DNA from: Lachnospiraceae bacterium | Lineage (GTDB): Bacteria; Bacillota; Clostridia; Lachnospirales; Lachnospiraceae | Direction: 5' to 3' | Assembly: GCA_030540075.1 (NCBI GenBank) | Contig: JAUNWX010000018.1 | Location: 1 to 43,888 of the forward strand | DNA: 43,888 bases | Shown here: positions 12,154 through 27,746 of the stretch, piece by piece | Layout of the letters: each line of letters opens with the position of its first letter | Position numbering within the stretch: position 1 is the first letter of the stretch | Program-made: the position numbers and the translations under genes | Notes under the pieces: generated by a model | Seen by the model: the letters and a program-made list of their open reading frames with translations, nothing else | Databases searched by the model: none | What the model was told of the DNA's origin: nothing

Positions 12154-12390
12154 GCAAGGAGCCCCGGAGGGCAGCCACTGAAAGCCATACGTAGAGTTCG
12201 TGAAGAATCAAAATTGTCCCCCTTAGAACCAGTTGGAGTAATTTTTCCTTAGCACTCTCTGCAACACTGAGTTTTCATAAAGAAAACTCAGTCGTTTGCA
12301 GAGAGCCTACTGGTTCTTAGGGGGACAATTTTAGAGTCTTCCGAACTCGTAGTACTGTGCTTTCAGTGGCTGCCCTCCGAGGCTCCTTGC
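12154..12390 (-). other. Structured inverted-repeat element, copy A (candidate ncRNA or hairpin mobile element)
   Basis: A 237-bp element that can fold almost end to end. The outer arms (12154-12185 with 12359-12390) pair over 32 positions with one mismatch. Inside lie a second helix (12193-12205 with 12338-12348), a 27-position helix (12210-12236 with 12306-12332) with two A-A mismatches, and a terminal hairpin (12255-12264 with 12296-12305, capped by ACTGAGTTTTC and its complement). It shares architecture and loop sequences with copy B at 27542-27746 when read on the minus strand. It lies between the copA promoter and the stop of the lipoprotein gene, so it could be its 3' UTR or an independent RNA. 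No ORF is plausible inside. Confidence 0.75.
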
Positions 12391-12414
12391 TTCACAGCGA
12401 CCAGGTTGCATTCA

Positions 12415-13926
12415 TCAACCCATCGGGCCTCCCGGGAGGAGGTCATCTGAAGGGGCCTGACTGCCCGGGCCGGCGGGTGCGGCGGACGGATCCGGGCCGG
12501 CCGGTACAGCCGGCTGAGGCGCAGGAGAAGCGGCGGTTTCTGCCGGCTTCTGCGGCTCCTCGATCTCCACGTGCTTTTCGCTTTCGTGTTTCTTTTCCGT
12601 TTCCTTCTTCTCGCTTTCCGCCTTCGTTTCGTCGTTCTTTTTCTTCTCGTTCTCCTCTTCTGTTTCGTCTTCACGCTTCGTATGATTCTCGCGCTTTATA
12701 TCATCGTCTCGTTTTTTATCCTTCTCTGACTCCGCATCCTCGCTCTTCTTCGACTCGCTGCTCTCGTCTTCGTCCTCATCCTCATATTCGTCTTCCGAAT
12801 CGTTTCCATAGGACGTCGAATCATCGTACCGACTCGCTGAGCTGCTTTCCTCCGGCTTCGTCACGGCATATCCATAGTAGAAATCCTCGCCCGGGACACT
12901 GCGGCCAATGGCGGCCGAGTCGACCTCCGCGATGGCGATCAGGTAGGCACCGAGCCGGCTCTTCATCTGATCGCCGGTGATGCACTTGAGATTCGCATAC
13001 GGAAGTGCCAGCGGCACAACCGCCGACTGTGTGATGCCGAACTTTCCGGCGAGCTTCGCGGTCTGATTCGCCGCCCGCTCGGCCTTTACGATCGACATCG
13101 CGGTCTCACGGAGAAGATTATCCACCGCGGCACGCTTATTTTCATAGTAATTCCGGTGCACGAGGGTCACGCTGGAGATCAGACTGCCGGTCGCGGTGAC
13201 ATTTTCCCAGCTGTCCTGCAGCGAAAACGCGCGGACGGTACCCGGCACGCCGGCCAGCAGGCTCGAGGCGTCCGGCTCTGCGACGATGGCGACCTTCGAC
13301 GGATCTGCCGAAAGCTGCGCCGTGATGTCCTCGATGCTCGTATACTGCACATCAAACTGCGTGCCGTACTGACTCTTCAGGTAGCGGATGACATACTCCG
13401 GCTGCTCGCCCTGTCCGACGCTCAGTATCGTCTGCCCCTTCAGTCCCTGGAAGCTCTTCAGCTCGGTGTTGCCGCTGATGCAGTACAGCTCGTTACCTGC
13501 ATTGATATTGACGATGACCGCACCGTCCTTCGCATCATGGTAGGCCCGTGTGGCACTTTCCGGTGACAGGACCGCGACGTCCGCCGCACCGGTGATGAAG
13601 TCCGAGAGGACCTCGTCTTCACTCGTCTTCAGCTCGAAATGGTAGTCTCCCTGTGTCGCACCCAGCTCGGACTCCTCCATGAGATGCGCGAAGCCGAGGG
13701 CCGCTGCCCCCTGGGAAAGCTCGATCTGTATCGCATCCGGATCCGCCGGCTCCACGACCTGGTCCGCCGGGATCGTCGTTTCAAGGATTGCCTGCGTCTC
13801 TGCTGCCGTCGTTTCCTGTTTCGATGCGACATGCTCCACGAGCTCCGTAAAATGTGTACATCCGGACAGGAGCAGCATCAGGGCCGCCGGGATCATCATA
13901 TATTTCCATGCTTTTTTCATCATCAT
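12415..13926 (-). CDS. Substrate-binding lipoprotein (NMT1/SsuA-like) with charged low-complexity C-terminal tail
   Basis: This 503-residue predicted lipoprotein has a lipobox LLLSGC (Cys23) after a short hydrophobic signal peptide. Residues about 65-350 resemble the periplasmic-binding domain of NitT/TauT/NMT1-type ABC transporters (ITGAADVAVLSPESATRAY and LKGQTILSVGQGEQPEYV). From about residue 358 the protein changes to a Ser/Asp/Glu/Lys-rich stretch of roughly 95 residues and then a Pro/Ala/Gly-rich end. No ATPase or permease gene is adjacent, so its transporter partner and ligand are unknown. Three ATG codons in a row mark the start; AAAGG lies just upstream, and the first or second ATG is used. 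The tail may span the cell wall or be disordered. Confidence 0.8.
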   Translation of the reverse strand: MMMKKAWKYMMIPAALMLLLSGCTHFTELVEHVASKQETTAAETQAILETTIPADQVVEPADPDAIQIELSQGAAALGFAHLMEESELGATQGDYHFELKTSEDEVLSDFITGAADVAVLSPESATRAYHDAKDGAVIVNINAGNELYCISGNTELKSFQGLKGQTILSVGQGEQPEYVIRYLKSQYGTQFDVQYTSIEDITAQLSADPSKVAIVAEPDASSLLAGVPGTVRAFSLQDSWENVTATGSLISSVTLVHRNYYENKRAAVDNLLRETAMSIVKAERAANQTAKLAGKFGITQSAVVPLALPYANLKCITGDQMKSRLGAYLIAIAEVDSAAIGRSVPGEDFYYGYAVTKPEESSSASRYDDSTSYGNDSEDEYEDEDEDESSESKKSEDAESEKDKKRDDDIKRENHTKREDETEEENEKKKNDETKAESEKKETEKKHESEKHVEIEEPQKPAETAASPAPQPAVPAGPDPSAAPAGPGSQAPSDDLLPGGPMG

Positions 13927-13968
13927 CTGGCCTTTTCTTTCTGATAAACTCTGATGACTATGTTAGCA

Positions 13969-13998
13969 CAAAAAGACCCCCGGAGAAAACTCCGGGGG
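13969..13998 (-). terminator. Intrinsic terminator between fucO and the lipoprotein gene
   Basis: A perfect 9-bp stem CCCCCGGAG (13977-13985) and CTCCGGGGG (13990-13998) with an A4/T4 loop. On the minus strand it is followed by TCTTTTTG. It ends the fucO transcript after a series of three larger hairpins. Confidence 0.88.
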
Positions 13999-14025
13999 AA
14001 ATATTTACAGTTCAAATTACAAGGA

Positions 14026-14153
14026 GACCATGCCATGAGATGCGCCTTCGGCGCGGGCATGGTCGCTTGATTTTGCCGGGCAGGCCGGCAAAACGGCCTC
14101 GCCGCCCGGGGGCATCACTGGGACCCCGCGCCCAAAGGGCGCACCCCAGTGAT
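14026..14153 (-). other. Three consecutive GC-rich hairpins downstream of fucO
   Basis: Directly after the fucO stop on the minus strand come three hairpins in a row. The first has ATCACTGGG with CCCAGTGAT (14114-14122, 14145-14153) and an inner GCGCCC/GGGCGC. The second has TTTTGCCGG with CCGGCAAAA (14071-14079, 14085-14093). The third has GACCATGCC with GGCATGGTC (14026-14034, 14056-14064) and an inner GCGCC/GGCGC. None has a T tract except the true terminator that follows. They may stabilise the fucO mRNA 3' end or form a small RNA. Confidence 0.55.
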
Positions 14154-14158
14154 ATTAA

Positions 14159-15304
14159 TTACATAAGCTTTCTGAACATAGCCTCGAAGTCAGCGATGCT
14201 TGCTTCTCTCGGGTTACCAGGTGCACATGCATCAGCAGCAGCGGACTCGCACAGGAACGGAAGATCCTCTTCCTTGAGTGCCTCGAGCTTGGTCGGGATG
14301 CCTACATCTACAGAGAGCTGCTTTACAGCATCGATGGCTGCCTTACGATAGGTGGCTGCATCCATACCGGTCGTGTCGATACCAAATGCCTCTGCGATGG
14401 CCTTGAACTTCTCACCAGTGTACTCCTGGTTGAACTCCATAACGATCGGAAGCATCATCGCGCATGCAACACCGTGCGGTGTGTCATAAACTGCACCGAG
14501 GGTATGTGCCATGGAGTGTGCGATACCGAGACCTACGTTGGAGTATGCCATGGCGGTTACATACTGTGCAAGTGCCATGCCCTCACGTCCATCCGGATCG
14601 TTCTGTACAGCCTTACGAAGGTTCTTTGCGATGAGCTTGATGGCCTCAAGGTCGAGTACATCGGCGAGCTCCCATGCACCCTTGGTGGTGTAGCCCTCAA
14701 TCGCATGTGTCAGCGCATCCATACCGGTCGAAGCGGTGAGGCCCTTCGGCATGGAGGACATCATATCCGGATCAACGACGGCGATATCAGGGATATCGTT
14801 TGCATCGACGCAGACGAACTTTCTCTTCTTCTCAACATCGGTGACAACGTAGTTGATGGTGGACTCTGCACCGGTACCACCGGTTGTCGGAACGGCGATG
14901 GTGAATACGGTACGATGCTTGGTCGGTGCAACACCCTCGAGGGAACGGATATCTGCGAACTCCGGGTTGTTGATGACGATACCGATGCCCTTACCGGTAT
15001 CCATGGAAGAACCGCCGCCGATGGTGATCATGCAGTCAGCGCCGCAGGACTTGTACGCCTCTACACCGTGCTGGATGTTCTCGATGGTTGGATTCGGCTT
15101 GATGTCATCATACAGGAAGAAGTCGATGTCGTTCTCCTTCAGAAGATCCGTCACCTTGGCTGTTACGCCGAACTTTACGAGGTCAGGATCGGATGCAACG
15201 AAAGCCTTATGATAGCCTCTTGCCTTGATGAGACCCGGGATCTCCTTGATTGCGCCATGTCCATGATAGGAAATACCATTTAAGACGAAACGATTCACAG
15301 CCAT
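14159..15304 (-). CDS. fucO: Iron-containing alcohol dehydrogenase, FucO-like lactaldehyde reductase
   Basis: This 381-residue cytosolic group III alcohol dehydrogenase is closely similar along its whole length to E. coli FucO (lactaldehyde:1,2-propanediol oxidoreductase, about 382 residues). Visible are the NAD-binding GGGSSMDTGKGIGI (about 96-109), NNPEFADIRSLEG, the iron ligands in GMDALTHAIEG and in HSMAHTLGAVYDTPHG, and the C-terminal GNPREAS. It would reduce aldehydes with NADH during fermentation; lactaldehyde is the best guess, but the family is broad. The start follows AAAGGAGTAAAATT. A near-consensus promoter (15435-15463) and a large leader palindrome (15385-15427) precede it. No fucose or rhamnose genes are nearby. 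Confidence 0.92.
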   Translation of the reverse strand: MAVNRFVLNGISYHGHGAIKEIPGLIKARGYHKAFVASDPDLVKFGVTAKVTDLLKENDIDFFLYDDIKPNPTIENIQHGVEAYKSCGADCMITIGGGSSMDTGKGIGIVINNPEFADIRSLEGVAPTKHRTVFTIAVPTTGGTGAESTINYVVTDVEKKRKFVCVDANDIPDIAVVDPDMMSSMPKGLTASTGMDALTHAIEGYTTKGAWELADVLDLEAIKLIAKNLRKAVQNDPDGREGMALAQYVTAMAYSNVGLGIAHSMAHTLGAVYDTPHGVACAMMLPIVMEFNQEYTGEKFKAIAEAFGIDTTGMDAATYRKAAIDAVKQLSVDVGIPTKLEALKEEDLPFLCESAAADACAPGNPREASIADFEAMFRKLM

Positions 15305-15384
15305 AATTTTACTCCTTTAAAATAAAATGAATGCCCTGTCAGAAAGACCCATTCGATCTGCACAGGCATGCTCTACAAACGATC

Positions 15385-15427
15385 GTTGTGTATGTGCAGA
15401 GCATTGTTCACTCTGCACAACCACAAC
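15385..15427 (-). promoter_or_regulatory. Leader palindrome of fucO (operator or RNA hairpin)
   Basis: Two nested inverted repeats: GTTGTG (15385-15390) with CACAAC (15422-15427), and TGTGCAGAG (15393-15401) with CTCTGCACA (15411-15419), separated symmetrically by two bases on each side. It starts right after the expected transcription start of the fucO promoter. The TTGTG/CACAA outer halves recall Rex half-sites, but their spacing is far wider than a Rex operator. Confidence 0.5.
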
Positions 15428-15434
15428 CTTTTTT

Positions 15435-15463
15435 ATGATAGCAGATTGTCGTTATTTTATCAA
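15435..15463 (-). promoter_or_regulatory. Sigma-A promoter of fucO
   Basis: On the minus strand -35 TTGATA (15458-15463), 17-bp spacer, -10 TATCAT (15435-15440). The leader is about 125 nt and carries the palindrome at 15385-15427. Confidence 0.7.
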
Positions 15464-15503
15464 CATTCTCCCAAAACACGACAAAATCGTCCTTCATCAG
15501 CTT

Positions 15504-15541
15504 AAAAAAATACCCTTCAGCCGTGAAAATGCCGAAGGGTA
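15504..15541 (-). terminator. Intrinsic terminator of the YfcE-like gene
   Basis: Stem TACCCTTCGGC-type: 15511-15521 pairs with 15531-15541 on the minus strand with one G-T pair, followed by seven T. It lies 28 nt after the stop of the phosphoesterase gene. Confidence 0.87.
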
Positions 15542-15568
15542 AGAAAAAGCGTTTCGTCAATATGTCGT

Positions 15569-16132
15569 TTACGCGTTCAGTGAAATCGATGCGATCGTGT
15601 GACCCTCAAAATCATATACCGTAAATACATCCTCATCGAGGATGGCATAGGTATTCGTGTTTCCGCCCTTCGGAAGGGAGGTGCTGCCCGGGTTCAGATG
15701 AAAGAACGAGCGTCCATCCTCTGCCGTCAGCTTCTCTGCCTTCAGCAGATGCGTATGACCATGCAGCAGTGCATCGCCTGCCATCAGTGGTGGAAGCTTC
15801 GTTTCATCGAAGAGATGACCATGGGTTGCAAAAATCGTATGGCCATTCAGTGCGAGGATCGCATAATCCGCCATCACCGGAAACTGCAGCACCATCTGGT
15901 CGACCTCCGCCTCACAGTTGCCACGTACCGCCCAGATTCTGTCCTTCAGCGGATTCAGCATCGCGATGACCTCCTTCGGTGCATACTCCTGAGGCAGGTC
16001 ATTCCGCGGTCCATGGTAGAGGATGTCGCCGAGGAGAATCAGGCGCTCTGCACCGCTCTCCTCAAACTTCTCCAGGGTCTTACGGCACCAGTACGCGGAG
16101 CCGTGGATATCACTGGCAATGAAATATTTCAT
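15569..16132 (-). CDS. yfcE: YfcE/MJ0936-type metallophosphoesterase
   Basis: This 187-residue cytosolic phosphoesterase has the calcineurin-like metal motifs ASDIHG (Asp8, His10), GDILYHGPRN, GNCEAEVD, THGH and GHTH in order. The YHGPRN and NPGS elements match the YfcE branch, which hydrolyses phosphodiesters in vitro; the physiological substrate is unknown. The start follows AGGAG ten nucleotides upstream. It lies 77 bp downstream of argS on the same strand, with a 11-bp hairpin (16152-16162 with 16179-16189, no T tract) in between, so it is probably the second gene of an argS operon. Confidence 0.92.
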   Translation of the reverse strand: MKYFIASDIHGSAYWCRKTLEKFEESGAERLILLGDILYHGPRNDLPQEYAPKEVIAMLNPLKDRIWAVRGNCEAEVDQMVLQFPVMADYAILALNGHTIFATHGHLFDETKLPPLMAGDALLHGHTHLLKAEKLTAEDGRSFFHLNPGSTSLPKGGNTNTYAILDEDVFTVYDFEGHTIASISLNA

Positions 16133-16209
16133 AATCTGTATTCTCCTCTCACTGCTGTCCGACGCATCGAACGTTTCCGGACAGCAGTCACTATTCGGTA
16201 TATTTCCGA

Positions 16210-18024
16210 TTACATCCGCTCCGGTGCACCGAATCCCAGTGTATGGATGCAGGTGCTCAGTACACGGAAGGTCAGCATCAGAAGCGCCATGCAGCTCTCC
16301 TTTTCCTTCTCCGGCAGGCTCAGGAACTTCACATCATGGTAGAGACTGTTGAAGTTGTTCGCCAGTGCATAGATATAGGAGCAGATGCGGTGCGGTGCGA
16401 GGTCCTTCCATGCACCGTTGATCTCATCCTGGTAACGGGTCAGCAGCATCTGCACATCATGTGCAGACTTCTCCTTCATCGGCAGGATCTGGAAGTCGGT
16501 CGCATGGGCCTTCACATAATCCTTTACATGCACATCATCACTTACGCCACGCTCCTGCATGAACTTCCGGAGGATCGAGTTGATCCGTACGATGGTGTAG
16601 AGGATGTATGGACCGGTGTTACCCTCGAAGGACGTGAATTTATCGAGGTCGAAGACGTAGTCCTTCGTCGCCTGATTCGAGAGATCACCGTACTTCAGTG
16701 CGGCGAGGCCGACACGAACGGCGATGGCGGCTGCCTCCTCCTCGCTGAGCTCCTCACCACGGGATGCGCGTACACGCTCGAGGACCTTTTCATTTGTCTC
16801 CTGGATCAGCTTCTCGAGACGGAGCACACCACCCTCACGGGTCTTAAACGGCTTTCCGTCCTTGCCGTTCATCGTACCGAAACCGATGAAACGAAGCTCC
16901 TCCTCCGGACGTACGAGGCCGGCCTTCCGTGCTACACGGAAGAACTGGGTATAGTGGAGGGACTGACGGCTGTCCGCGATGTAGATGTACGCATCCGGAT
17001 GATACAGCTTCTCACGCTCGACGATGGTGCCGAGGTCAGAGGTCGCATACAGTGCCGCACCGTCCGACTTACGGATCATGCATGGTGGAATCTCCTTCGC
17101 ATCGCTCTCCTCTGCAACATCCACCACCAGGGCGCCCTGGGACTCATACGCAAGTCCCTTATCAATCAGATCCTGAATCAGGCCCGGAATATACTGCTGC
17201 GCATCACTCTCGCCCTTCCAGAGATCGAAGTGAACGTCGAGGTTGCCATAGTTCTTCTTCAGATCCGCGATGGAGACCTTCATGATCTTGTTCCATACCG
17301 CACGGTAGGTCGGATCTCCGTTCTGCAACTTCAGTGTCGCCTGATGCGCACGCTCGGCGTACTCCGGATTGACGAGCTCGCCCTTATGCGGACCATCCTC
17401 ATACTTAGCCTTCGCCTTCGCAGAAGCGAACGGGTAGATCTCCTCCAGCTGGGAGATCTCGAGATCCTGGTCAAGCTGTCCGCGGTCCTCGAGCTCCGTG
17501 ATGATGAGGCCCATCTGAAGACCCCAGTCTCCGAGATGTACGTCACCGATGACCTCATTGCCCTGCTGAATCGCCATCCGCTTGATCGCCTCACCGATGA
17601 CGGCTGAACGAAGGTGGCCGACATGGAGCGGCTTCGCCGCATTGGCTCCGCCGTAGTCGATGATGATCTTCTTCCCCTCGTGGGCATCGAGGCCGAGGTC
17701 CTCATGGAAGTTCATCTCGTTCAGATACTTCGTGGTGAGCTCCTCGGATACGTTCAGGTTGATGAAGCCCGGCATCACCGCAGAGACCTCGGAGAACATC
17801 ACGATGTCACCCTGCTGCATGGTCTTCAGCTTCTCCACCACCTCGTTTGCGATATCCATCGGCTTCTTGTGGTACTGCTTCGCACCGGCCATCGCTCCGT
17901 TCGACTGGTACTCGCAGAGGTCCGGACGGTTGGAAATCGACACGCGACCGAGCTCTGCATCATAGCCGGCCAGCACAAACGCAGTCCGTACGGCGTCGGT
18001 GATAACGTTAAGAATCGTAGTCAA
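16210..18024 (-). CDS. argS: Arginyl-tRNA synthetase
   Basis: This 604-residue class I synthetase charges tRNA-Arg. The HIGH signature appears as HVGH in DYGGANAAKPLHVGHLRSAV near residue 130. The C-terminal anticodon-binding domain ends with GAPERM, matching the usual ArgS LG(I)xxxERM ending. As in many ArgS proteins no canonical KMSKS is present; the region reads REGGVLRLEKL. The start codon is TTG (18022-18024), preceded by AAAGGAG at seven nucleotides, and no upstream ATG fits better. A rare start can lower translation. No T-box leader is visible upstream. Confidence 0.96.
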   Translation of the reverse strand: MTTILNVITDAVRTAFVLAGYDAELGRVSISNRPDLCEYQSNGAMAGAKQYHKKPMDIANEVVEKLKTMQQGDIVMFSEVSAVMPGFINLNVSEELTTKYLNEMNFHEDLGLDAHEGKKIIIDYGGANAAKPLHVGHLRSAVIGEAIKRMAIQQGNEVIGDVHLGDWGLQMGLIITELEDRGQLDQDLEISQLEEIYPFASAKAKAKYEDGPHKGELVNPEYAERAHQATLKLQNGDPTYRAVWNKIMKVSIADLKKNYGNLDVHFDLWKGESDAQQYIPGLIQDLIDKGLAYESQGALVVDVAEESDAKEIPPCMIRKSDGAALYATSDLGTIVEREKLYHPDAYIYIADSRQSLHYTQFFRVARKAGLVRPEEELRFIGFGTMNGKDGKPFKTREGGVLRLEKLIQETNEKVLERVRASRGEELSEEEAAAIAVRVGLAALKYGDLSNQATKDYVFDLDKFTSFEGNTGPYILYTIVRINSILRKFMQERGVSDDVHVKDYVKAHATDFQILPMKEKSAHDVQMLLTRYQDEINGAWKDLAPHRICSYIYALANNFNSLYHDVKFLSLPEKEKESCMALLMLTFRVLSTCIHTLGFGAPERM

Positions 18025-18120
18025 ATCTATACTCCTTTAACTATGCCATGAGAGGCACGTCCTCCCATGAATCGACGGTTTCTTAAGAATTTCGTAAGGG
18101 GGTCAGACCCCATAAACCCG

Positions 18121-18154
18121 AAAAAAAGAAGGTTTCCCGTTTGGGAAACCTTCT
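18121..18154 (-). terminator. Intrinsic terminator of efp
   Basis: A perfect 12-bp stem AGAAGGTTTCCC (18127-18138) and GGGAAACCTTCT (18143-18154), tetraloop, followed on the minus strand by seven T. It lies 41 nt after the efp stop. Confidence 0.92.
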
Positions 18155-18195
18155 CACAAACGGATCGCTCCGTATATGGTCTGATCACGCAAGGA

Positions 18196-18753
18196 TTAGC
18201 CGCGGGACTCGTACTCACCGGTCTGGGTAGATACGATAACCTTATCACCGATGTTGATGAACAGCGGAACCATGATCTCTGCACCGGTCTCAAGGGTTGC
18301 CGGCTTCTGAGCACCGGTTGCGGTGTTGCCCTTTACGCCCGGCTCCGTGTGGGTAACCTCGAGGGTGACCTTCAGAGGCGGCTCAACAGCGAATACCTTA
18401 CCCTGGTAGGAGTCTACACGAACGGTCTCGTTCTCCTTTACGAACTTCATCTCATCCGAAATCTGCTCGTGGGAAAGGGAAATCTGCTCGAAGGTCTCCG
18501 GGTTCATGAAGTTGTACATATCACCATCATCGTAGAGATACTGCATATCCTGACGATCGATGTGTGCTGGCGGGAACTTCTCGGTCGGACGGAATGTACG
18601 CTCGATTACACCACCGTTGATAACGTTTCTAAGCTTCGTTCTTACGAAAGCTGCGCCCTTACCAGGCTTTACATGCTGGAACTCGACGATCTGAACAACC
18701 TGACCATCAATCTCAAGTGTGACACCGTTTCTGAAATCACCTGCTGATACCAT
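18196..18753 (-). CDS. efp: Translation elongation factor P
   Basis: This 185-residue three-domain factor rescues ribosomes stalled on polyproline stretches. The KOW-like domain I has the modified-lysine loop PGKGAAF with Lys32 at the tip. The OB domains II and III contain [15 protein letters not shown] and the C-terminal signature region [13 protein letters not shown]. The length is normal. The start follows AGGAGGATTTT. The gene is monocistronic: own promoter (18882-18910) with a leader of about 120 nt and own terminator. The enzyme that modifies Lys32 is not in the window. Confidence 0.96.
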
Positions 18754-18881
18754 AAAATCCTCCTAAAATGAAAAACCAAAATATCACTATTCTGGAAACA
18801 TGAAGTTTTTATATTCTAATCGTACTTTCAGGCCCGAATCAACGTCCCTTCGGATGCGCCAAGCTCACAAAATACTGATGT

Positions 18882-18910
18882 ATTTTAATATAAATACCGC
18901 TGCAATGCAA
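18882..18910 (-). promoter_or_regulatory. Sigma-A promoter of efp
   Basis: On the minus strand -35 TTGCAT (18905-18910), 17-bp spacer, -10 TAAAAT (18882-18887). Between this and the citC stop is a small hairpin (18986-19002, CTTCTGT-CGC-ACAGAAG) without a T tract that may end the cit transcript. Confidence 0.6.
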
Positions 18911-19002
18911 GTATTTCTTAGGTTTTGCGTGCTTTCCCGACGTTTTTCCGATCAGCCTTGCGCCGAGGGGGCCCGATGTGTCGGCTTCTGTCGCACAGAA
19001 GA

Positions 19003-20175
19003 TCAGTAATGTACGACCTCTTCTGCTGCCCGGATCCGCTCAATCACCGCTGCTGCTTCCGGGGATGTGAAGTAGCGGTAGGTGGTTTCCGGCACGAGGC
19101 CGCGGATGTCCTCGAGCCGTCCGTCATGGATGCAGCTCCGTACCGTGGAGGCCGAAATCGCCTTTCCGTCCGCTTCCTTCCGCGGGATGATGTGACACGC
19201 CACGCCCGCCTCCGGGAGCGCCGTCGACAGGATTTCATTATAGATGCCTGTCACCACCGACGTCGGTTCATCCCCGACAAAGCGATCCGTGATGCCGAGC
19301 GCCGCCGCGATCTGCGTGAAGATCCGCTCATCGATGCCCGCCTGGCTTCGAATCACCGCATTGTCTCCCTTCTGGAAGTACGCCGGGAAGGTCGCCGAGC
19401 TGATGATATACGAGCCGGCCTCGTGGTATACGATGCCCGGGATGTCCTTCGTCCCCTCCAGGATCAGCTTCTTCCGCACGGAAAACGGCACGAGGCTTAC
19501 GTCCTCCGACACCATAAACAGATGCAGAACCCCGCAGGCCGCCCGCGCCTGTTCGACGAGGTAGCGGTGCCCGAGGGTAAACGGATTCGCGTTCATGACG
19601 ATGGCCCCGACGCGTACACTCTGGTCCAATGCTGCCGGGCCGGCTGCACAGGACCCTCCCGGGACCATGACGGCTTCGGTCGGGTGCGACGGACCCGGCT
19701 CGCCTGCATTGGCCTCATCCCGGGCGGTCGTCTCCGCCTGCTGCGTCTGCCGCTGAAGCGCGGCGAGGTAATCCCGGAAACCGGTCCGCTTATTCTCCAT
19801 GAAGACGATATTCTCCTCCGGGACGCGGGTGATCTCATAGAAACCAAGGTTTCCGAAGAAACGCGCGGAATCGCACTTCGTATATAAGAAGAGATGGTAG
19901 TTTCCGCGACTGTACTGCACCTCGATGAGGTGGGAAACGATCGCGTTCATGAGGGACTCACCCTGGTGGTCGGAGCTCACCGCCATACAGCGGAGGGTGT
20001 TCCCGAACAGGCTGCCCGTCGCGATGACATGATAGTCCTCGTCGAGCATCGCCGCCGTATAATCGAGATGCTGGTCGCGATGGATACCCTCCCGCTCGAG
20101 GAGCGCGTCCACCTCTGCCTGCATATAGCGGTCACCCGGGCCGACCGATGAGATTGCATACGTTGTGTCTGACAT
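19003..20175 (-). CDS. citC: [Citrate (pro-3S)-lyase] ligase
   Basis: This 390-residue enzyme acetylates the thiol of the citrate lyase prosthetic group with acetate and ATP, switching the lyase on. It has a GNAT-like N-terminal domain (about 1-135, SLFGNTLRCMAVSSDHQGE) and a nucleotidyltransferase domain with NANPFTLGHRYLVE (195-208). Between them is an unusual 48-residue Gly/Pro/Ala/Glu-rich linker (about 140-188), making the protein longer than model CitC (about 350). The start at 20175 (MSDTTYAI) follows AAGAGGTTTT; the open frame upstream reads through the citG tail. It is the last gene of the citX-citG-citC unit. A GC hairpin (20215-20231) separates it from citG. Confidence 0.93.
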   Translation of the reverse strand: MSDTTYAISSVGPGDRYMQAEVDALLEREGIHRDQHLDYTAAMLDEDYHVIATGSLFGNTLRCMAVSSDHQGESLMNAIVSHLIEVQYSRGNYHLFLYTKCDSARFFGNLGFYEITRVPEENIVFMENKRTGFRDYLAALQRQTQQAETTARDEANAGEPGPSHPTEAVMVPGGSCAAGPAALDQSVRVGAIVMNANPFTLGHRYLVEQARAACGVLHLFMVSEDVSLVPFSVRKKLILEGTKDIPGIVYHEAGSYIISSATFPAYFQKGDNAVIRSQAGIDERIFTQIAAALGITDRFVGDEPTSVVTGIYNEILSTALPEAGVACHIIPRKEADGKAISASTVRSCIHDGRLEDIRGLVPETTYRYFTSPEAAAVIERIRAAEEVVHY

Positions 20176-20237
20176 AAAACCTCTTTTCCATCCAGTAGAG
20201 TTTCGCTCCATCATAACGCCCTGCGGGCGTTTCTTTT

Positions 20238-21359
20238 TCAGCAGCCCGCACTGTCTGCGTCCGCATCCTCCGTGAGTTTCAGAAGAAGGATCGCCACCGC
20301 GAGGATATCCGCGGCACCACCCGGACTGATGTTCTTTTCGATGCAGGCAGTATTCAGTGCTTCGATCGCCCGCACGCCCTCCTCCGTAAACATCGCACCC
20401 ATGCTGAGGATCGTGCTGCTCTCTGCCTGCAGCCAGCACATATCCTCATAGGAGCTTCGGATGAACACGTTCGTGTCGTTCAGCACCGACATGATGGCGA
20501 TCAGCGTACTGACATGTACCGCATTCTCGAAGTGCTCGGCATGCATGCTGCCGGTATCCTGAAGGAGTCCGCGGCGGAGCGTCGCCTGCGCGGCTATAGC
20601 GCGCTGCAGTTCTGCGTCTGTGCCTATGTTCTGAAATCGTCGCAGCCATGGCACAGCGGTATCCCGAAGGATCGGAAAGCCCTCCATCGCCTGACCGCGG
20701 ATGCCCCGCTCACCATACGCCTGAAAGAGCCGCTCCCCATGCGTCTTCGGCGGGTGCTCGAGCATCTTCCGAAAGTCCTCTGCCATACTCCGTGCCGTCA
20801 TCTGACGCGCCCTGTCGAGGATCGCGTCCACCGTGATCTGCCCGACGATGACGCCCGTTTCCGATATCGCCGACTCTCCGTCAGCTGTCATCGGCTGCAC
20901 GTCCGCGGAAGCCAATGCTTCCGGCGTCACATCATCGTCCACCGGCCGTTCTGCCGCCTCTTCGCGTCGTGCATACAGGATACCCGCCGCCGCCAGCACG
21001 ATGCCCATGGTGAAGATCATGCCCTTATGGGTATTAACGCCTTCGGTCACCGCATACATCGCCTGCTCCGCCTCGAGACCGATGCCGCGGATCGCCTGAA
21101 ATACTTCTTCCGGCGTATGGCCGGCGCCTGTCGCATCCATCCCCTCCGTAAACATACGCACCATGAACGGTGTGATGGCTTCGGTACTCGCGAGGAAGGT
21201 CTCGTAATTCATGTCGCGATGCGCGCCGGTATCCCGACGATCCACGAGGCCCGGCTTCGGTGTCGCATAGACTTCGCCGAGCAGCGCATTCCGTACCTGC
21301 CAGCCGATGTGCTCGAAAAGGGTGGCACGCGCCGAATCATCAAACGCTTTTTTATTCAT
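20238..21359 (-). CDS. citG: Triphosphoribosyl-dephospho-CoA synthase
   Basis: This 373-residue enzyme makes 2'-(5''-triphosphoribosyl)-3'-dephospho-CoA, the precursor of the citrate lyase prosthetic group, from ATP and dephospho-CoA. Family motifs are GEVYATPKPGLVDRRDTGAHRDM (first part, about 28-46), GVNTHKGMIF near 108-117 and the C-terminal SPGGAADILAVAILL. An acidic insert of about 45 residues (roughly 132-177) is not expected in model CitG. Its ATG overlaps the TGA of citX by four bases (ATGA), so translation is coupled. GAGG lies upstream inside citX. Confidence 0.93.
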   Translation of the reverse strand: MNKKAFDDSARATLFEHIGWQVRNALLGEVYATPKPGLVDRRDTGAHRDMNYETFLASTEAITPFMVRMFTEGMDATGAGHTPEEVFQAIRGIGLEAEQAMYAVTEGVNTHKGMIFTMGIVLAAAGILYARREEAAERPVDDDVTPEALASADVQPMTADGESAISETGVIVGQITVDAILDRARQMTARSMAEDFRKMLEHPPKTHGERLFQAYGERGIRGQAMEGFPILRDTAVPWLRRFQNIGTDAELQRAIAAQATLRRGLLQDTGSMHAEHFENAVHVSTLIAIMSVLNDTNVFIRSSYEDMCWLQAESSTILSMGAMFTEEGVRAIEALNTACIEKNISPGGAADILAVAILLLKLTEDADADSAGC

Positions 21360-21886
21360 CGCGCCGCCTCGATGATGCGGTGGATCTCCGCGACCATATC
21401 CGACACCGCATGGGTCCGGTTCCGTGCGCAGAGATGGGCCTCCTGTTCACACATGAGGCACTTCCGCGGCGGCATACCGAACTCCTCGCGACTCACCTTC
21501 TGCCCATCCTTCCGGATGACATCGATGTCGAAGATCCGTCCGAGCCGGTCCGCATCCTCGATGAGACACATGAGCTCCTTCACGCGGATCGCCTCCGCGT
21601 CCACGGAAGCGTAATACACATAGCCGGTCACTTCCTCTTCCTTCTTCTCTGCCTCGATCCGGATATCGTTCTGGTCGAGGCAGTGCTCTATACGCTGAAG
21701 GCCGGTTTCGAAGGCCCAGTAGAAGTCCTCTCCCACCTTATGTGGGCCCGGGATGTTCAGCATGAAGCAGATCACCGGATGGTGAAAGCGCGCGATGAAA
21801 TCCTGCTGCAGCTCCACCCGATGATCTCGTGCGGCCAGCATCTCCGGCACCGTCACCTCATGCGTAAAATCAAGTTTCTTTTCCAT
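21356..21886 (-). CDS. citX: Holo-ACP synthase CitX (apo-citrate lyase phosphoribosyl-dephospho-CoA transferase)
   Basis: This 176-residue transferase attaches the dephospho-CoA-type prosthetic group to the CitD acyl carrier protein. Recognisable are LNIPGPHK (about 43-50), GRIFDIDV (about 115-122) and the Cys/Arg-rich RKCLMCEQEAHLCARNRTH (about 141-159), which is the family signature. The start follows GGAGGCCTGCT. It overlaps citG by four bases. It is separated from citF by a strong terminator, and an extended -10 promoter (21918-21926) may drive citXGC separately. Confidence 0.94.
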   Translation of the reverse strand: MEKKLDFTHEVTVPEMLAARDHRVELQQDFIARFHHPVICFMLNIPGPHKVGEDFYWAFETGLQRIEHCLDQNDIRIEAEKKEEEVTGYVYYASVDAEAIRVKELMCLIEDADRLGRIFDIDVIRKDGQKVSREEFGMPPRKCLMCEQEAHLCARNRTHAVSDMVAEIHRIIEAAR

Positions 21887-21917
21887 AGCAGGCCTCCTGT
21901 TTTTCTATCTGCAGCTT

Positions 21918-21926
21918 ATTCTAACA
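21918..21926 (-). promoter_or_regulatory. Possible extended -10 promoter of citXGC
   Basis: On the minus strand TGT-TAGAAT, an extended -10 element, lies just after the citF terminator and about 32 nt before the citX start. No convincing -35 is present. Without it citXGC would depend on terminator read-through. Confidence 0.35.
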
Positions 21927-21930
21927 CATA

Positions 21931-21968
21931 AAAAGGCGCTTTGGTTATCCCCTTAACCAGAGCGCCTT
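21931..21968 (-). terminator. Terminator between citF and citX
   Basis: A 15-position stem (21933-21947 with 21954-21968, AAGGCGCT core, one T-G pair) with a 6-nt loop; on the minus strand a run of five T follows. It lies 78 nt after the citF stop, inside the cit cluster, and would make the structural genes more abundant than the maturation genes. Confidence 0.85.
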
Positions 21969-22045
21969 CATTCATGAGAAGACCGTGTCACGCACGGAGA
22001 GGTCATGATCTGCTGACCCGAATCGAAAATTCAGGTCCTGTATGA

Positions 22046-23608
22046 TCAGTCTTTAAACTCGAATGGCTTGATCTGACGAACGACATCCATGATGGAGCCG
22101 TCACGTGCTTCGATGACACCGACAACACGGTCACCGAACTGAACCTTCTCCGGCGCGCCGGTGATGGAGTACGCGATGTCGCGAAGCTCCTCGATGGTCT
22201 TGATCGGAAGATCCTTACCAGCGACAGCATCGATGAGATCCTGACGCTTCGGGTTGATGGCGATACCATAATCGGTTACAACGACATCGACATCCTCACC
22301 CGGAGTGGTGACGGTCGTACAGTCGCTGCAGATCGTCGGGATTCTGCCCTGCATGATCGGAGCGATCACGATGGTGCACTTCGCACCGGCAGCGGTATCC
22401 GGATGTCCGCCCTGGGCACCAGTGATGACACCGTCAGAGCCCACAACGACGTTACAGTTGAAGTGTGTATCAACCTCAAGTGCAGCGAGGATAACGAAAT
22501 CCAGCTTATTTACGTATGCACCCTTGTTGAACGGGTTTGCATACTCATCTGCCGTGATGTAGAAGTGGCGCGGATGAGTCGCTGCGGACTTGATCGCATC
22601 CTGGTCGAAATCCTGGGTATCGACGAGACAGTCTGCGAGACCCTCATCGAGGAGGTCACACATCGGCTTCGTAAGACCACCGACGCCGAAGGACATGTGA
22701 ATATTGCGCTCACGCATCACCTCTGCGAGGTACTTGGTGGAAGCGATGGACGCACCGCCGACACCGGTCTGGTAGGAGAAGCCCTCCTTGAAGTACGGTG
22801 TGTTCACAACGAAATCTGTGCAGTACTTCGCCATAAGCAGCTTTCTCTGATCGGTCGTCGGCTTCGCTGCACCGGTCGCGATCTTCGTCGGATCACCGAT
22901 CTCGTCGACCTTTACGACATAATCGACCTTAACCTGAGAAATCTGTGCAGGAAGGTTCGGGAATGGTACCAGTGTATCGGTAACTGCAACTACGCGGTCT
23001 GCATACTCAGCATCCACTGCGGAGTAGGAAAGCACACCACAGTCCGCCTTACCACCGTTGGCGTTCAGGTTACCGTACTCATCTGCGGTTGGTGCGCCGA
23101 TGAAGGCGATGTCGATGTGGGTCTCACCACTCATGATGGCTCTGGAACGTGCACCGTGGGAACGCATGATGGCGAGTCCCTGCAGACGACCATTTGAAAT
23201 CGCCTTACCGATCTCACCACGCACACCGGAAGACTCGATGTTTGTGATGGTGCCATCGTCGAGCATGTATACGATCGGATCGTTCTGTCCACCGAGGGAA
23301 GAAGCGCAGATCGTGATGTTCTTGATGCCCATGGCATGAACCTCTTCCATGACCATGTTGAGCACCTTGTCACCATTACGGAAGTGGTGGTGGAAGGAAA
23401 GGGTCATACCGTCCTTGATGCCGCACTTTACGAGTACATCATGGATGGAATCTACGAGCTTGGAGCCGTTCGAGTTGATCACGCACTTCACCTTATGGGA
23501 AGCAGTCTCAAACTCATGGCCGTCGAAATGATGGGTTCCCTGGAATACTTCCTTACCGGTCGCCTTTAAAATCTCCTCCGGAATATCTCTTCCTACTGCA
23601 TTTAACAT
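22046..23608 (-). CDS. citF: Citrate lyase alpha subunit (citrate:acetyl-ACP transferase)
   Basis: This 520-residue subunit swaps acetate for citrate on the acyl carrier protein, forming citryl-ACP. The CoA-transferase fold is seen in SFHHHFRNGD, SSLGGQNDPIVYML, GAPTADEYGNLNANGG, and CGVLSYSAVDAEYAD. The C-terminal half has GSDGVITGAQGGHPDTAAGAK, strongly conserved in CitF. The start lies 2 bp after the citE stop, with GGGGGATC overlapping the citE end as ribosome binding site. Order citD-citE-citF matches other citrate lyase operons. Confidence 0.97.
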   Translation of the reverse strand: MLNAVGRDIPEEILKATGKEVFQGTHHFDGHEFETASHKVKCVINSNGSKLVDSIHDVLVKCGIKDGMTLSFHHHFRNGDKVLNMVMEEVHAMGIKNITICASSLGGQNDPIVYMLDDGTITNIESSGVRGEIGKAISNGRLQGLAIMRSHGARSRAIMSGETHIDIAFIGAPTADEYGNLNANGGKADCGVLSYSAVDAEYADRVVAVTDTLVPFPNLPAQISQVKVDYVVKVDEIGDPTKIATGAAKPTTDQRKLLMAKYCTDFVVNTPYFKEGFSYQTGVGGASIASTKYLAEVMRERNIHMSFGVGGLTKPMCDLLDEGLADCLVDTQDFDQDAIKSAATHPRHFYITADEYANPFNKGAYVNKLDFVILAALEVDTHFNCNVVVGSDGVITGAQGGHPDTAAGAKCTIVIAPIMQGRIPTICSDCTTVTTPGEDVDVVVTDYGIAINPKRQDLIDAVAGKDLPIKTIEELRDIAYSITGAPEKVQFGDRVVGVIEARDGSIMDVVRQIKPFEFKD

Positions 23609-23610
23609 AA

Positions 23611-24516
23611 TTAAAGATCCCCCTTATACACACCGGCTGCCTTTGCGAGCTTGATGGTTCTCTGTGCGCCGTCATAGAAAGCGATATCGATCATCTTACC
23701 GTCTACGGTGAAGACGCCGATGCCCTTTGCCTTCTTGTCATCGATTTCCTTAATTACCTTCTCTGCGAAGATGATATCCTTTGTGGTCGGCGTGAAGATC
23801 TCATGTACGATATCGATCTGACGAGGGTTGACACAGGACTTTCCATCGAAGCCCATGTCATGGATCGTCTGAACATCCTTGCGGAAGCCGTCCATGTCAT
23901 CGAGGTTCGTCCATACGGTATCGAAGCACTGTACACCAGCGGCACGTGCAGCGATGATCATCTGCTGACGGGCACCCATGAGCTCTACACCGGTACCGGT
24001 GATATGGGTCTGCAGATCCTTCGTATAGTCACCACCGGAAAGTGCAACACCGATCAGACGATCTGAAGCGGTGCAGACCTCGTAAGCATTCATGATTCCC
24101 TTGCAGGACTCGAGTGCCGACATGATGAGGGTGGAACCCGGCTCACGGTCGAACTCTTCCTCAGCCGCCACGACCTTCTCTTCTACGGCACGAACCATGT
24201 CCGCAGACTCGGTCTTCGGGATACGGATGACATCCGCGCCTCCAGCTACGCAGCAGCGGATATCCTCCTCCCAGAGGTCGGTATCGAGGCCGTTGATACG
24301 AACGACACGCTCAGATCCACGGTAATCGATGGTGGTCAGTGCATGGTAGAGTGAGAAACGTGCGGTGTCCTTCGCAGTTACAGCAACCGCATCCTCGAGG
24401 TCCAGCATGAGTGAATCACACTTGTAGATGTACGGATCCTTGATGAGTGAAGGCTTCTGTGCATTCAGGAACATCATGGATCTTCTCAGTCTCTTCTTGT
24501 TCGGATTCTCAATCAT
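23611..24516 (-). CDS. citE: Citrate lyase beta subunit (citryl-ACP lyase)
   Basis: This 301-residue TIM-barrel subunit cleaves citryl-ACP to oxaloacetate and acetyl-ACP. Family blocks are RRSMMFLNAQKPSLIKD at the N-terminus, SLMLDLEDAV, VRINGLDT, IRIPKTES, and the later GVALSGGDYT and GFDGKSCVNPRQ. The start at 24516 follows GGAGG at nine nucleotides, which lies within the last citD codons; the in-frame ATG at 24534 is not used in family members. Its ATG overlaps the citD stop (ATGA), so the two are coupled and made in equal amounts. Confidence 0.97.
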   Translation of the reverse strand: MIENPNKKRLRRSMMFLNAQKPSLIKDPYIYKCDSLMLDLEDAVAVTAKDTARFSLYHALTTIDYRGSERVVRINGLDTDLWEEDIRCCVAGGADVIRIPKTESADMVRAVEEKVVAAEEEFDREPGSTLIMSALESCKGIMNAYEVCTASDRLIGVALSGGDYTKDLQTHITGTGVELMGARQQMIIAARAAGVQCFDTVWTNLDDMDGFRKDVQTIHDMGFDGKSCVNPRQIDIVHEIFTPTTKDIIFAEKVIKEIDDKKAKGIGVFTVDGKMIDIAFYDGAQRTIKLAKAAGVYKGDL

Positions 24517-24812
24517 CGGATGGCACCTCCCCATGGTAAATTCGTGTACTGATCCACAGAACGGAATACAGCACCTTCGATACGCGCCTTGATCGTGCAG
24601 TCGAGTGCACCCTTGTCGACGATGGAGATCTTGACATTATCGATGCCCAGATTCTTCAGGGTTTCCATGGTGACCTTGCGGATCTCGTTACCAAACTGAT
24701 GTGCAACTGCGGAATCGAGAGTGAAATCGATCTTTCCGTCTCCCGGCTCAACCGTTACCTGGCAGTCACTGGATTCCATCGTGCCCGCTACAGCAGGTTT
24801 CTTAATTTCCAT
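24513..24812 (-). CDS. citD: Citrate lyase acyl carrier protein (gamma subunit)
   Basis: This 99-residue carrier holds the dephospho-CoA-derived prosthetic group of citrate lyase. The serine attachment site lies in AGTMESSD (residues 9-16, Ser14 by position). The C-terminus has RVEGAV-like ARIEGAVFRS and NLPWGG. The start follows AAGGAGGAAACT. It is the first gene of the cit operon, with about 150 nt of leader back to the promoter at 24965-24993. Confidence 0.95.
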   Translation of the reverse strand: MEIKKPAVAGTMESSDCQVTVEPGDGKIDFTLDSAVAHQFGNEIRKVTMETLKNLGIDNVKISIVDKGALDCTIKARIEGAVFRSVDQYTNLPWGGAIR

Positions 24813-24964
24813 AGTTTCCTCCTTGTCAGCAGAAGCGATCCCCCAATCGTTTCTGCAACTCCATTAGTTACTTGTTTCGACTTAACCAGCGCTCTTCTGT
24901 GTTTAAGCTATCGTCATTATACACTTTGAAGCGCCGGATAATTCTTATTTTTTGTGGTAATTCC

Positions 24965-24993
24965 ATAATATAGCAGTGTGAGTGTATAGTAAA
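24965..24993 (-). promoter_or_regulatory. Promoter of citDEF with shared AT-rich box
   Basis: On the minus strand -35 TTTACT (24988-24993), 17-bp spacer, -10 TATTAT (24965-24970). The sequence just upstream (to about 25011) reads CCATAATAATATAACTATT and forms, with the -35, a box shared with the promoters at 32753 and 38090. An alternative -10 TATAAT occurs at 24916-24921 but lacks a -35. The 382-bp gap 24813-25194 holds this promoter, a hairpin and no gene. Confidence 0.6.
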
Positions 24994-25053
24994 ATAGTTA
25001 TATTATTATGGACGGCATAGGTTGTTCCTATATTTATACAATTCTGTATACAC

Positions 25054-25084
25054 AAACAGGGAGATGGCATGGATCTCCCCGTTT
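25054..25084. terminator. Hairpin between hydratase 1 and the cit promoter
   Basis: Stem AAAC-x-GGGAGAT (25054-25065) with ATCTCCC-x-GTTT (25073-25084). The T tract is better on the plus strand; on the minus strand only TGTTTG follows. It is the only candidate to end the hydratase transcript, 110 nt past its stop. Confidence 0.45.
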
Positions 25085-25194
25085 TTCATTATTTCAAGTG
25101 CCTCATAAAGGCGATGATCATCTCCGCACAGGCAAACTGCATACATTCGCTGAAATGCGGTCAGAACCGCACCGCGACGTGATGATGTCGTGCC

Positions 25195-27492
25195 TTAAGC
25201 ATTGGCATGTCCCAGCTTGTTAAAGTTGATGAGGCAGCCGTCCTTTACAATCTGACGCTCGTTTTCCGTCATCGGAAGGACATAGAGCCCGATCTCGGTC
25301 GCCTGACCGTTCTTCAGAACATAGGCCTTGATGTCGTCGAGTTTATTCTCGGTGAGCGCCTGACGGATGCCCGGTACGTAGATGTAGTCACCGACCTCGA
25401 AGCTGTCCGGCTCGCCCTTCAGGTGGAACGGTACCATGCCCCAGTTCATGCAGTTACTTCTGTAACGCTTGGTTGCGTACTCCTGCGTGATGTTTGCGAG
25501 GGCACCGAGTACACGCTGGCAGGAAGCGGCCTGCTCACGGGCAGAACCGTCGCCCGGCTTGTTCGCGTAGATGGTGGAACCGATCTCGACCTCGGACGCC
25601 TGTACGTTCTCCTGGCCCGGGATCTGATGGATCAGCTTGAATACCTCTTCTACCTCAGCGGCGTTCTTACCGGCCTTACGTGCATCCTCGAGATCACGTA
25701 CTGCCTTCGCACGGGCTACGTACTCCGAATCACGTCTCGAAAGCGTGAACTCTGCGAGGCCGAGCGGGTTCGAACGGTAGGAAGAGGTCTCACCGGAAGG
25801 GATGAGCTCATCGGTCGTGGTGACCGGATCGAGGATCTTCGAAGCGACCTTGAGAAGGATGTTGTCGGTCATCTCCTCCTGCTCCGGCCAGTCCTTGATG
25901 TTCGGTCCGAAGCGAAGCGGAAGCTCGAGATCCGCCTTGCCCCAGCCCTGGTATACACGGTTCTGGTAGGCCTTGTCGTCGTAGTTGTACTCTGGGATAT
26001 CGCCCCAGCAGTCGAGCTCCTCGGCAGAGGTCAGCTTACCGCCGTTTGCAGCGGTTGCCGCGATGGAACGCGCGTCCATGAGGCATACGGCCGACATCTG
26101 GCCCACGCCCGGCTTCGAGCCCTCACGGTTCGGGAAGTTACGGGTCGTATGACGGATGGAAAGCGCGTTGTTCGCCGGTGTGTCACCTGCGCCGAAGCAA
26201 GGTCCACAGAAAGCGGAACGGATGATGGCACCCGCATCCATGAGGTCTGCGAGCAGGCCCTTGCGGTCGAGGTCGGTATAGACCGGCTGCGAGGACGGGT
26301 AAACGCTGAGATAGAACTCGCTGTCGCCAATGTTTTTGCCCTTCAGTGCATGAGCCGCCTCGACGACATTGGTATAGTTACCGCCTGCACAGCCGGCGAT
26401 GATACCCTGCTGTACCTGGAGGCGATGATCCGCGGTGATCTTATCGAGGAGGGTGAAGTGTGCTCTGCCCTCGGCAACCTTCTCGGCTTCCTGCTCGGTC
26501 GCACGGAGGATGTCCTCGAGGTTGTCATAGAGCTCGCCGATCTCGTATGCGTTGGACGGATGGAACGGAAGGGCGATCATCGGACGGATGCTGGAAAGAT
26601 CGACCTCGACGCAGCCGTCATAGTATGCGACGTCTGCCGGATTCAGCTCCTTGAACTCTGCACCTCTGTGATGCTTGTCGAGGAACTCCTTCGTTGCGGC
26701 ATCGGTTCTCCAGATGGAGGACAGGCAGGTGGTCTCGGTGGTCATAACGTCGACACCGTTACGGTAATCCGCCGTCATGCTGGATACACCAGGGCCCACG
26801 AACTCCATTACCTTATTCTTCACATAGCCATTCTTGAAGACCGCGCGCTCGATCGCGAGTGCGACATCGTGCGGGCCTACGAATGGCTGTGGCTTACCGG
26901 TGAGGTAGATGGCTACGACACCCGGATAAGCGACGTCATAGGTCTGCTTCAGGAGCTGCTTACTGAGCTCTCCGCCACCCTCACCGATCGCCATGGTACC
27001 GAGGGCGCCATAACGGGTGTGGGAATCGGAGCCGAGGATCATCTTTCCGCAGCCGGCGAAGTTCTCACGCATGAACTGATGGCATACCGCGATGTGAGGT
27101 GGAACGTAGATTCCGCCGTACTTCTTTGCGGCAGAGAGACCGAAGTAGTGGTCGTCATCATTGATCGTACCACCGACCGCGCAGAGCGAGTTGTGGCAGC
27201 AGGTCAGCACGTATGGCAGCGGGAACTTCTCCATGCCGGAGGCACGTGCCGTCTGGATGATGCCGACAAAGGTGATATCGTGGGATACCATCGCGTCAAA
27301 CTTGATTTTCAGATTCTCCATGGTGTCCGCGGTGTTGTGGGACTGCATGATGCCATAGGCGATCGTACCCTTCTTCGCTTCCTCCTGGTTTGCAGCCTTT
27401 CCGGTCAGCTGCTCGACTTTTGCGGCCTCGGATGCCGGAACGAGCTCGCTTCCGTGCACCAGGTAGACGCCACCTTCATGTAACTTTACCAT
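25195..27492 (-). CDS. Aconitase-family hydratase, YbhJ-like (copy 1)
   Basis: This 765-residue protein is an aconitase-superfamily hydratase of the YbhJ/'hydratase' branch rather than a standard AcnA, AcnB or LeuCD. The expected Fe-S cluster cysteines are present: GCAGGNYTN in place of SCTNS, and [28 protein letters not shown] and the C-terminal swivel-domain block [14 protein letters not shown] are also clear. The substrate of this branch is not established; the neighbourhood (citrate lyase directly downstream, isocitrate dehydrogenases, PrpF) suggests a tricarboxylic acid such as citrate, isocitrate, aconitate or a homologue. The start follows AAGGAGGTACAT. Its leader contains structured element B. 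Confidence 0.85.
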
Positions 27493-27541
27493 ATGTACCT
27501 CCTTGGGGTGTAATATCTCTGTTCAGGCGGGAAGATCGAGC

Positions 27542-27746
27542 GGACGCGCAGCAGAAGCACAGTACTGCGATGCCGGCAAACTCTAAAATCGGACCTCTAA
27601 GAAGCGCTAAGCTCCTTCCAATCGGTGAGTTTCCCTGATGGAAACTCGCCGTTGGAAGGAGGGCTAAGGAAAGCAGAACTAAGCGCTTCTAAGAGGTCCG
27701 ATTTTGATTTTGCACGGCCTCTTCGTATGGCTTCTGCTGTGCGTCC
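27542..27746 (+). other. Structured inverted-repeat element, copy B (candidate ncRNA or hairpin mobile element)
   Basis: A 205-bp element with the same fold as copy A. Outer helix 27542-27558 with 27730-27746 (17 bp, one G-T). Second helix around 27572-27580 with 27708-27718. A 27-position helix 27585-27611 with 27679-27705 with A-A mismatches at positions 15 and 25, exactly as in copy A. Terminal hairpin CTCCTTCCAA (27612-27621) with TTGGAAGGAG (27652-27661), capped by GGTGAGTTTCC and its near complement. Unpaired blocks shared with copy A are AGCACAGTACT, ACTCTAAAAT, GCTAAGGAAA, TTTTGATT and CGTATGGCTT. It fills the divergent region between hydratase 1 and LysR 1. Confidence 0.75.

Follow-up and report, generated by a model that had tools for sequence, protein, structure and literature searches.

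The contig JAUNWX010000018.1 of a Lachnospiraceae bacterium (GenBank assembly GCA_030540075.1), analysed over its whole length of 43,888 nucleotides (nt) and called the window here, contains two copies, A and B, of a long hairpin element whose stem letters differ while their pairing is kept. This raises the question of whether the hairpin acts as RNA or as DNA. The initial annotation proposed either a structured RNA class or a transposable hairpin recognised by shape. Of these two readings the second survives, while the first is weakened. In our view there is about an even chance that the element is a non-autonomous giant quasi-palindrome resembling a miniature inverted-repeat transposable element (MITE), with arms matched by copying at the DNA level and a folded core under selection.

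Both copies are present and fold as first described. Their predicted folding energies are -137.3 kcal/mol for A and -168.1 kcal/mol for B (z of -14.1 and -19.5), and none of 200 shuffles of either copy folded as well. Exactly eight pairs of the 27-position helix, as originally reported, are changed on both strands with Watson-Crick pairing kept, and 15 are identical. When the comparison takes in all 80 pairs of the alignment structure, the doubly changed pairs number 24 and the identical ones 49, with seven in neither group. As had also been noted, both copies have A.A mismatches at the same two positions, which sit 10 positions apart within CTAAG-type motifs. In an alignment of 27 copies from the same genome (A1), both mismatches are A.A in every copy. 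The proposal that the loops are shared held only in part. The CTAAG mismatch motif and an AAGGAAA bulge are widely kept, more so than the loop CACAGTACT, which is common to nearly all 27 aligned copies but missing from the own-genome subfamily L009/L033/L038 and from the copies seen in genomes G004, G011 and G013. In this subfamily the outer domain carries GCTGGTCGCC where others have CACAGTACT.

Covariation in larger alignments, initially suggested as a test of the structure, proved massive. In A1, a compensated double change was found at 55 of the 80 pairs, and cells with such changes numbered 300 against 76.7 +/- 6.8 in shuffles. Pairing was kept in 96.2% of cells, compared with 81.8% after shuffling and 38-47% with the partner slid (46-47% at one column). 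Alignment A3 gave pairing of 94.8% against 71.0% shuffled and 37-47% slid, with 277 double-change cells against 84.1. Additionally, 87 of 114 copies examined (80/100 from the genus Oribacterium, 6/10 from genome G058 and 1/4 from genome G180) have two isolated A.A mismatches whose spacing is exactly 10 positions. Copies A and B and their family therefore share a real conserved structure beyond chance. Because the mismatches are kept while the stem letters change, they must be under constraint. The initial argument, that mismatches would not persist in the changing stem of a MITE, demonstrates such constraint and does not exclude a MITE. A plain inverted-repeat MITE with perfect arms is nevertheless ruled out by the persistent mismatches, loops and junction.

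The family is large and extends well beyond the window. A DNA search of the copies' own genome gave 40 matches. A covariance model (R1), built from A1 and hence from 27 of the 50 places listed in that genome, gave at least 104 matches at 50 or more distinct places. Palindromes tend to match R1 on both strands, and match counts per genome include both; they are also lower bounds, with 138 candidates scored per genome in the R1 search of the genus and six in the searches with a second model (R2) described below. R1 found matches in at least 11 of 17 Oribacterium genomes, with at least 49 in G013, 41 in G011, 39 in G016 and 31 in G004, and 0-5 in the other 12. A pattern scan of named genomes found the element in Oribacterium NK2B42, WCC10 and P6A1 and in the metagenome-assembled genome RUI013, and this identifies the genus of the window's genome as Oribacterium. 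Over 150 Lachnospiraceae genomes, R1 matched its own genome and, with a single match apiece, G058 and G180. The element was then located at ten places in G058 and at six in G180, where the letters differ and the chain of structural parts is the same: a unique outer palindrome, an internal loop, a mismatched helix, a long free helix and a two-hairpin junction. Model R2 was built from 16 G058 and G180 copies and has 70 pairs, 55 of which show a compensated double change. It matched at least 22 of 397 Lachnospiraceae genomes, in at least 20 of 334 genera, and at least 18 of the 22 have two or more matches; the covariance search proposed at the outset thus found many homologues. R2, although built in other genera, recovered the window's own genome at 1.9e-9. 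In a sample of 391 genomes of the class, it matched only that genome among the matches scored, under strict filters by which absence is no proof. Overall, the distribution is multi-copy and patchy across the Lachnospiraceae. Among the papers listed by searches of the open-licence literature of PubMed Central (PMC), none concerned such a repeat in Oribacterium or the Lachnospiraceae, and the family is apparently undescribed so far. Internally deleted copies reduced to the outer hairpin also occur (L034, approximately 2107-2667, with long outer arms, and L036, approximately 2130-2674).

Comparison of orthologous sites indicates how the arms change. The orthologous copies L081 (G004) and L083 (G011) differ at only two bases, which are pairing partners, A-T in one and T-A in the other. 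Across 15 orthologous pairs, two of which share one member, there were 98 double Watson-Crick changes, 59 single changes and four double changes that do not pair. Part of the double changes stem from module exchange: at three orthologous sites (L112/L142, L121/L136 and L125/L144) a form of 216 nt stands opposite one of 293 nt with extra apical hairpins. The extra double-hairpin was also observed alone (L118, 1243-1535; G013:C45:96963-97027; G004:C3:100515-100581). In G013:C45 it lies in a 75-nt stretch that is absent from G004 and is perhaps within a gene.

The outer arms are unique to each copy, and the palindrome may continue outward beyond the core, by 141 nt in L258 (G047), 117 nt in L262 (G371), and 131, 122 and 111 nt in L235, L238 and L241 (G058). 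In a control that combined arms of different copies, the median was -8, the 95th percentile 9 and the maximum 91. Among 52 copies examined, 47 had a stop called, and in three of these the palindrome enters the coding end; in L264 it takes in 14 nt of the end of the upstream gene. Fold-back copying would extend a palindrome outward in this manner, and it may be identical with the known template-switch route. Insertion into a terminator loop is possible for L017, whose outer stem ends in a T run, but was not adopted as a general explanation. The sites orthologous to L017 (L224 in G013:C45 and L218 in G011:C185) carry a different long palindrome with AGAAAATGCAAGGGA arms. It has the same habit, as its outer arms are common to the two species and its apical hairpins differ between them.

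The ends of the element are clearest in the single-contig genome G067, which contains near-identical copies with terminal inverted repeats, including five complete units of 439-477 bp. The terminal pattern was found at 19 ends and its reverse at none. Four near-identical copies begin at a stop codon, and at 16 of the 19 ends a flanking open reading frame (ORF) of at least 95 codons ends 0-2 nt inside the repeat, whereas an ORF ended likewise at 78 of 20000 positions drawn at random from the same loci. A T precedes the AA or AG of the repeat at 13 of the 19 ends. ORFs in these and the later counts of orientation and sense follow simple ORF rules and not annotation. Flanking genes include polC, purD, those for a GH32 protein, galactose-1-phosphate uridylyltransferase and an ABC transporter, and alpha-amylase-type and GlgC-type genes. 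It seems that the element has spread in G067 without breaking genes. In the right half of the complete units, a second, separate hairpin adjoins the main one. The element is short, non-coding and dispersed in many copies with terminal inverted repeats, properties that it has in common with bacterial MITEs.

Around 100 Oribacterium copies, TTCAG-type ends were found on the left of 11, on the right of 15 and on both sides of six, a set that does not include copy B; shuffles gave 1.84, 1.90 and 0.06. Nine sites were compared between G013 and G004. At five of them both species have a full element; at two more a full element in one species stands against a short remnant in the other, the remnants being a perfect 2 x 22 palindrome (G004 C24) and an outer hairpin (G004 C3:95586). 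The last two sites (G004 C3:125776 and C1:114196) are full in G004, and in G013 may be empty or deleted. From this comparison, movement in Oribacterium looks old. In L128, one copy is nested within another.

The main rival, which we consider unlikely, is a structured RNA: mRNAs would carry in their 3' untranslated part a giant hairpin that is selected for termination, stability or protein binding and has spread by some unspecified route. Such an RNA would account for copies directly after stop codons, the invariant loops, A.A mismatches and junction, the very stable predicted fold and the compensated pairs above controls. RNA stems tolerate G.U and not A.C, while to a DNA palindrome both are alike. 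With arms aligned so as to favour neither and elements above 260 nt excluded, 8186 positions held 142 G.T and 154 A.C. Counts with a freer centre and with G058 and G180 added summed to 231 and 194, and paired columns gave 43 and 27 in A1 and 23 and 19 in A3. G058 alone, with 36 G.T to 16 A.C, agrees with an RNA, and G180 had 12 and 22. The preference for wobble pairs expected of a structured RNA is near-absent overall, compared with 6 G.U to 1 A.C in the acceptor stems of 14 tRNAs from the loci examined, a small control in which the tRNA finder itself favours pairs. Additionally, the 14 orthologous pairs compared show 90 double changes, of which 57 are transversions and 33 are transitions; the neighbour part of this comparison excluded G001 and any form of at least 235 nt. 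For rRNA, PMC8794818 reports that 78.5% of two-step changes pass via G-U and that 61.0% of instantaneous ones are of the transition type. Orientation speaks both ways. Of 100 Oribacterium copies used, 98 have an ORF on either side, and these show no sense bias (34 ++, 31 --, 25 convergent); eight, copy B included, lie between divergent ORFs. Outside Oribacterium, the upstream ORF shares the sense of the element in 47 of 53 cases, 29 of which are convergent and ambiguous, and same-direction neighbours give the element's sense by 15 to 4, the strongest point for RNA. Rfam gave no match at gathering scores in the window or in 140 kb of G013. A permissive scan of six loci returned only a tRNA gene, which lies in L077 but outside the element, and matches far below cut-off to eukaryotic microRNA and long non-coding RNA models, two of which overlap elements. 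A known RNA family was rejected on these scans, in agreement with the initial impression that the element belongs to none. Taken together, the similar numbers of G.T and A.C, the transversion doubles and the presence of both senses in Oribacterium weaken the case for RNA.

Two other explanations also place the structure in DNA. A folded single-strand recombination site, like integron attC or REP/REPIN, whose mismatches would be read in the hairpin by a recombinase or an HUH enzyme, agrees with unpaired bases at fixed spacing within a stem of free sequence, with the nearly strict Watson-Crick stems and with locations just 3' of genes. The element does not correlate with Y1 transposases, however, and the G067 neighbours named from 10 + 5 ORF queries, polC and purD among them, are ordinary genes of the chromosome, not cassettes; we hold such a site to be quite improbable. 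Alternatively, the hairpins could be a functionless by-product, long palindromes that template switching keeps tidy and that conversion between copies keeps similar. The arm-matched change seen at orthologous sites, the fact that no two copies share outer arms, and module exchange are all as this would predict. The A.A mismatches ought to be the first to vanish under such tidying, but both are present in all 27 aligned copies and keep their 10-position spacing in other genera; their persistence speaks against a by-product. The core shape of the own-genome copies was, moreover, recovered by a model from other genera, and we regard a by-product as very improbable.

The MITE-like quasi-palindrome remains the favoured reading. 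Full-length copies with terminal inverted repeats would land at gene ends, as best seen at stop codons, where the first bases of the repeat would rebuild the stop codon on insertion. Transposition would be carried out by a transposase acting in trans. A change in one arm would be copied to the other at the DNA level, probably by replication template switching on the hairpin, and dispersed copies would convert each other module by module. Arm-to-arm copying and conversion among copies could together yield RNA-like covariation without selection on RNA. Selection would preserve the invariant features, namely the A.A mismatches 10 apart, the internal loops and the bulge or junction, because it is in its folded form, probably a single-stranded DNA hairpin or cruciform, that the element would be recognised. 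A bolder and more tentative version, which we hold to be possible but on balance doubtful, is a transposable element defined by shape, whose enzyme reads the folded DNA hairpin via two mismatches about one helical turn apart, whose stem letters are free and rewritten by hairpin-templated DNA copying, and which parks harmlessly on stop codons.

Several observations weigh against the favoured reading, among them the shared sense outside Oribacterium described above. TA is exact at both junctions in only two of the five complete G067 units, and none of the nine G013/G004 sites gave an occupied/empty pair that can be called clean. No autonomous relative was seen, Y1 being the transposase family searched, and no unit of kilobase size lies between facing G067 ends. 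Three of the four G.T/A.C counts lean to G.T, none of them strongly, and G058 leans further. Single, uncorrected changes alone separate L117/L130, L122/L132 and L123/L134, and swapping of long-diverged modules would by itself yield many transversion doubles. Finally, the element and Y1 transposases (PF01797) do not go together: G016 has 39 element matches and no Y1, and G008 has no element match and four Y1 matches. Their numbers being uncorrelated, Y1 transposases were rejected as the mobilising partner. G004 has 30 Y1 matches, many of them partial.

Other candidate partners and origins were also rejected. At L308, L310 and L315 in G067, a repeated protein (303 residues in two places) ends exactly at element ends. 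It has no Pfam or NCBIfam match and, among the 318 loci examined, no match outside G067, and so is not a general partner. A role of the elements as ends of a larger transposon was rejected, as the facing pairs looked at follow two convergent ORFs, one each. With regard to phages and plasmids, copy L013 of G000 was unmatched in phage and plasmid records at 1e-5, the element pattern had no match in viral contigs, and two G058 copies had no phage match at 0.1. The single match of copy A, 35 nt in an Escherichia phage at E 5e-3, was put down to chance. A phage or plasmid origin was rejected on these searches, which also gave no support to the idea that the arms are guides against phages.

The positions of the features in the window are collected in Table 1, in which the extent originally given for copy A corresponds to its full paired length. 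Elsewhere in the window, a second aconitase-like gene appears at 30249-32671 as two ORFs (30827-32671 and 30249-30788) and is perhaps split or broken.

Table 1. Features of hairpin copies A and B in the window
Feature	Position	Strand	Evidence
Copy A, full paired length with locus-specific outer stem	12154..12390	-	Fold
Copy A, conserved core (model R1 positions 1-216)	12164..12380	-	Covariance match, 241.2 bits, E 2.1e-54
Copy A, A.A mismatch 1	12318, partner 12224	-	A.A in 27/27 aligned copies
Copy A, A.A mismatch 2 (10 positions further)	12308, partner 12234	-	A.A in 27/27 aligned copies
ORF upstream of copy A, same sense	12415..13926	-	Stop 35 nt before core
Copy B, conserved core	27537..27751	+	R1 match 27536-27751, 214.8 bits, E 4.0e-48
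Copy B, A.A mismatch 1	27599, partner 27691	+	A.A in 27/27 aligned copies
Copy B, A.A mismatch 2 (10 positions further)	27609, partner 27681	+	A.A in 27/27 aligned copies
Copy B, possible left terminal repeat remnant GTTCAGGCGGG (weak)	27521..27531	+	Sequence; TTCAG-type ends enriched around Oribacterium copies

The element resembles several known systems without coinciding with any of them. bcr1 of Bacillus cereus is a dispersed intergenic repeat with a stable fold, as is the Lachnospiraceae element. Integron attC sites keep their structure with free sequence, have extrahelical bases and lie 3' of genes; the Lachnospiraceae element shares these properties but occurs as dispersed single copies after ordinary genes. 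REP/REPIN sequences, which are associated with TnpA-REP, are likewise dispersed extragenic palindromes. The Lachnospiraceae element is, however, far from the 20-40 bp of REPs given in PMC3733652, and has no link to a Y1 (RAYT) transposase. In a MITE review (PMC2229807), Correia/NEMIS of Neisseria, RUP and ERIC are described as small dispersed repeats that do not code for protein; they have terminal inverted repeats and 5'-TA-3' ends, and form long stem-loops. The Lachnospiraceae element is similarly dispersed and non-coding, with terminal repeats and TA-type ends. It differs from Correia/NEMIS, as described there, in its unit length (216 to 477 bp compared with about 100-200), near-continuous palindrome, free stems, fixed mismatches, stop-codon ends and occurrence in numerous genera of a single family. 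A further dispersed intergenic repeat with a stable fold, YPAL/RU-2 of Yersinia, has targets in or beside dyad symmetry and lacks TA ends, and the word "compensatory" is absent from the same review (PMC2229807). Closer to the proposed arm copying, template-switch mutations create and maintain hairpins, producing compensatory changes in one DNA event and extending stems (PMC8794818), and in actively maintained inverted repeats of nematodes the repeat structure is better conserved than the sequence (PMC1803023). The Lachnospiraceae element shares with these the arm-matched change, stem extension and conservation of structure over sequence. Those cases concern RNA genes and nematode repeats, unlike this bacterial repeat family with little G-U preference.

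Compensated base change is widely regarded as the strongest sign of a functional RNA. For pipelines that search for new RNAs, very strong covariation combined with a mismatch pattern that points to DNA is therefore a warning. If the element is indeed defined by its shape, a DNA element would show covariation as strong as that of a structured RNA. The family lends itself to testing whether template switching gives rise to covariation, and the Lachnospiraceae gain a repeat that marks the ends of genes.

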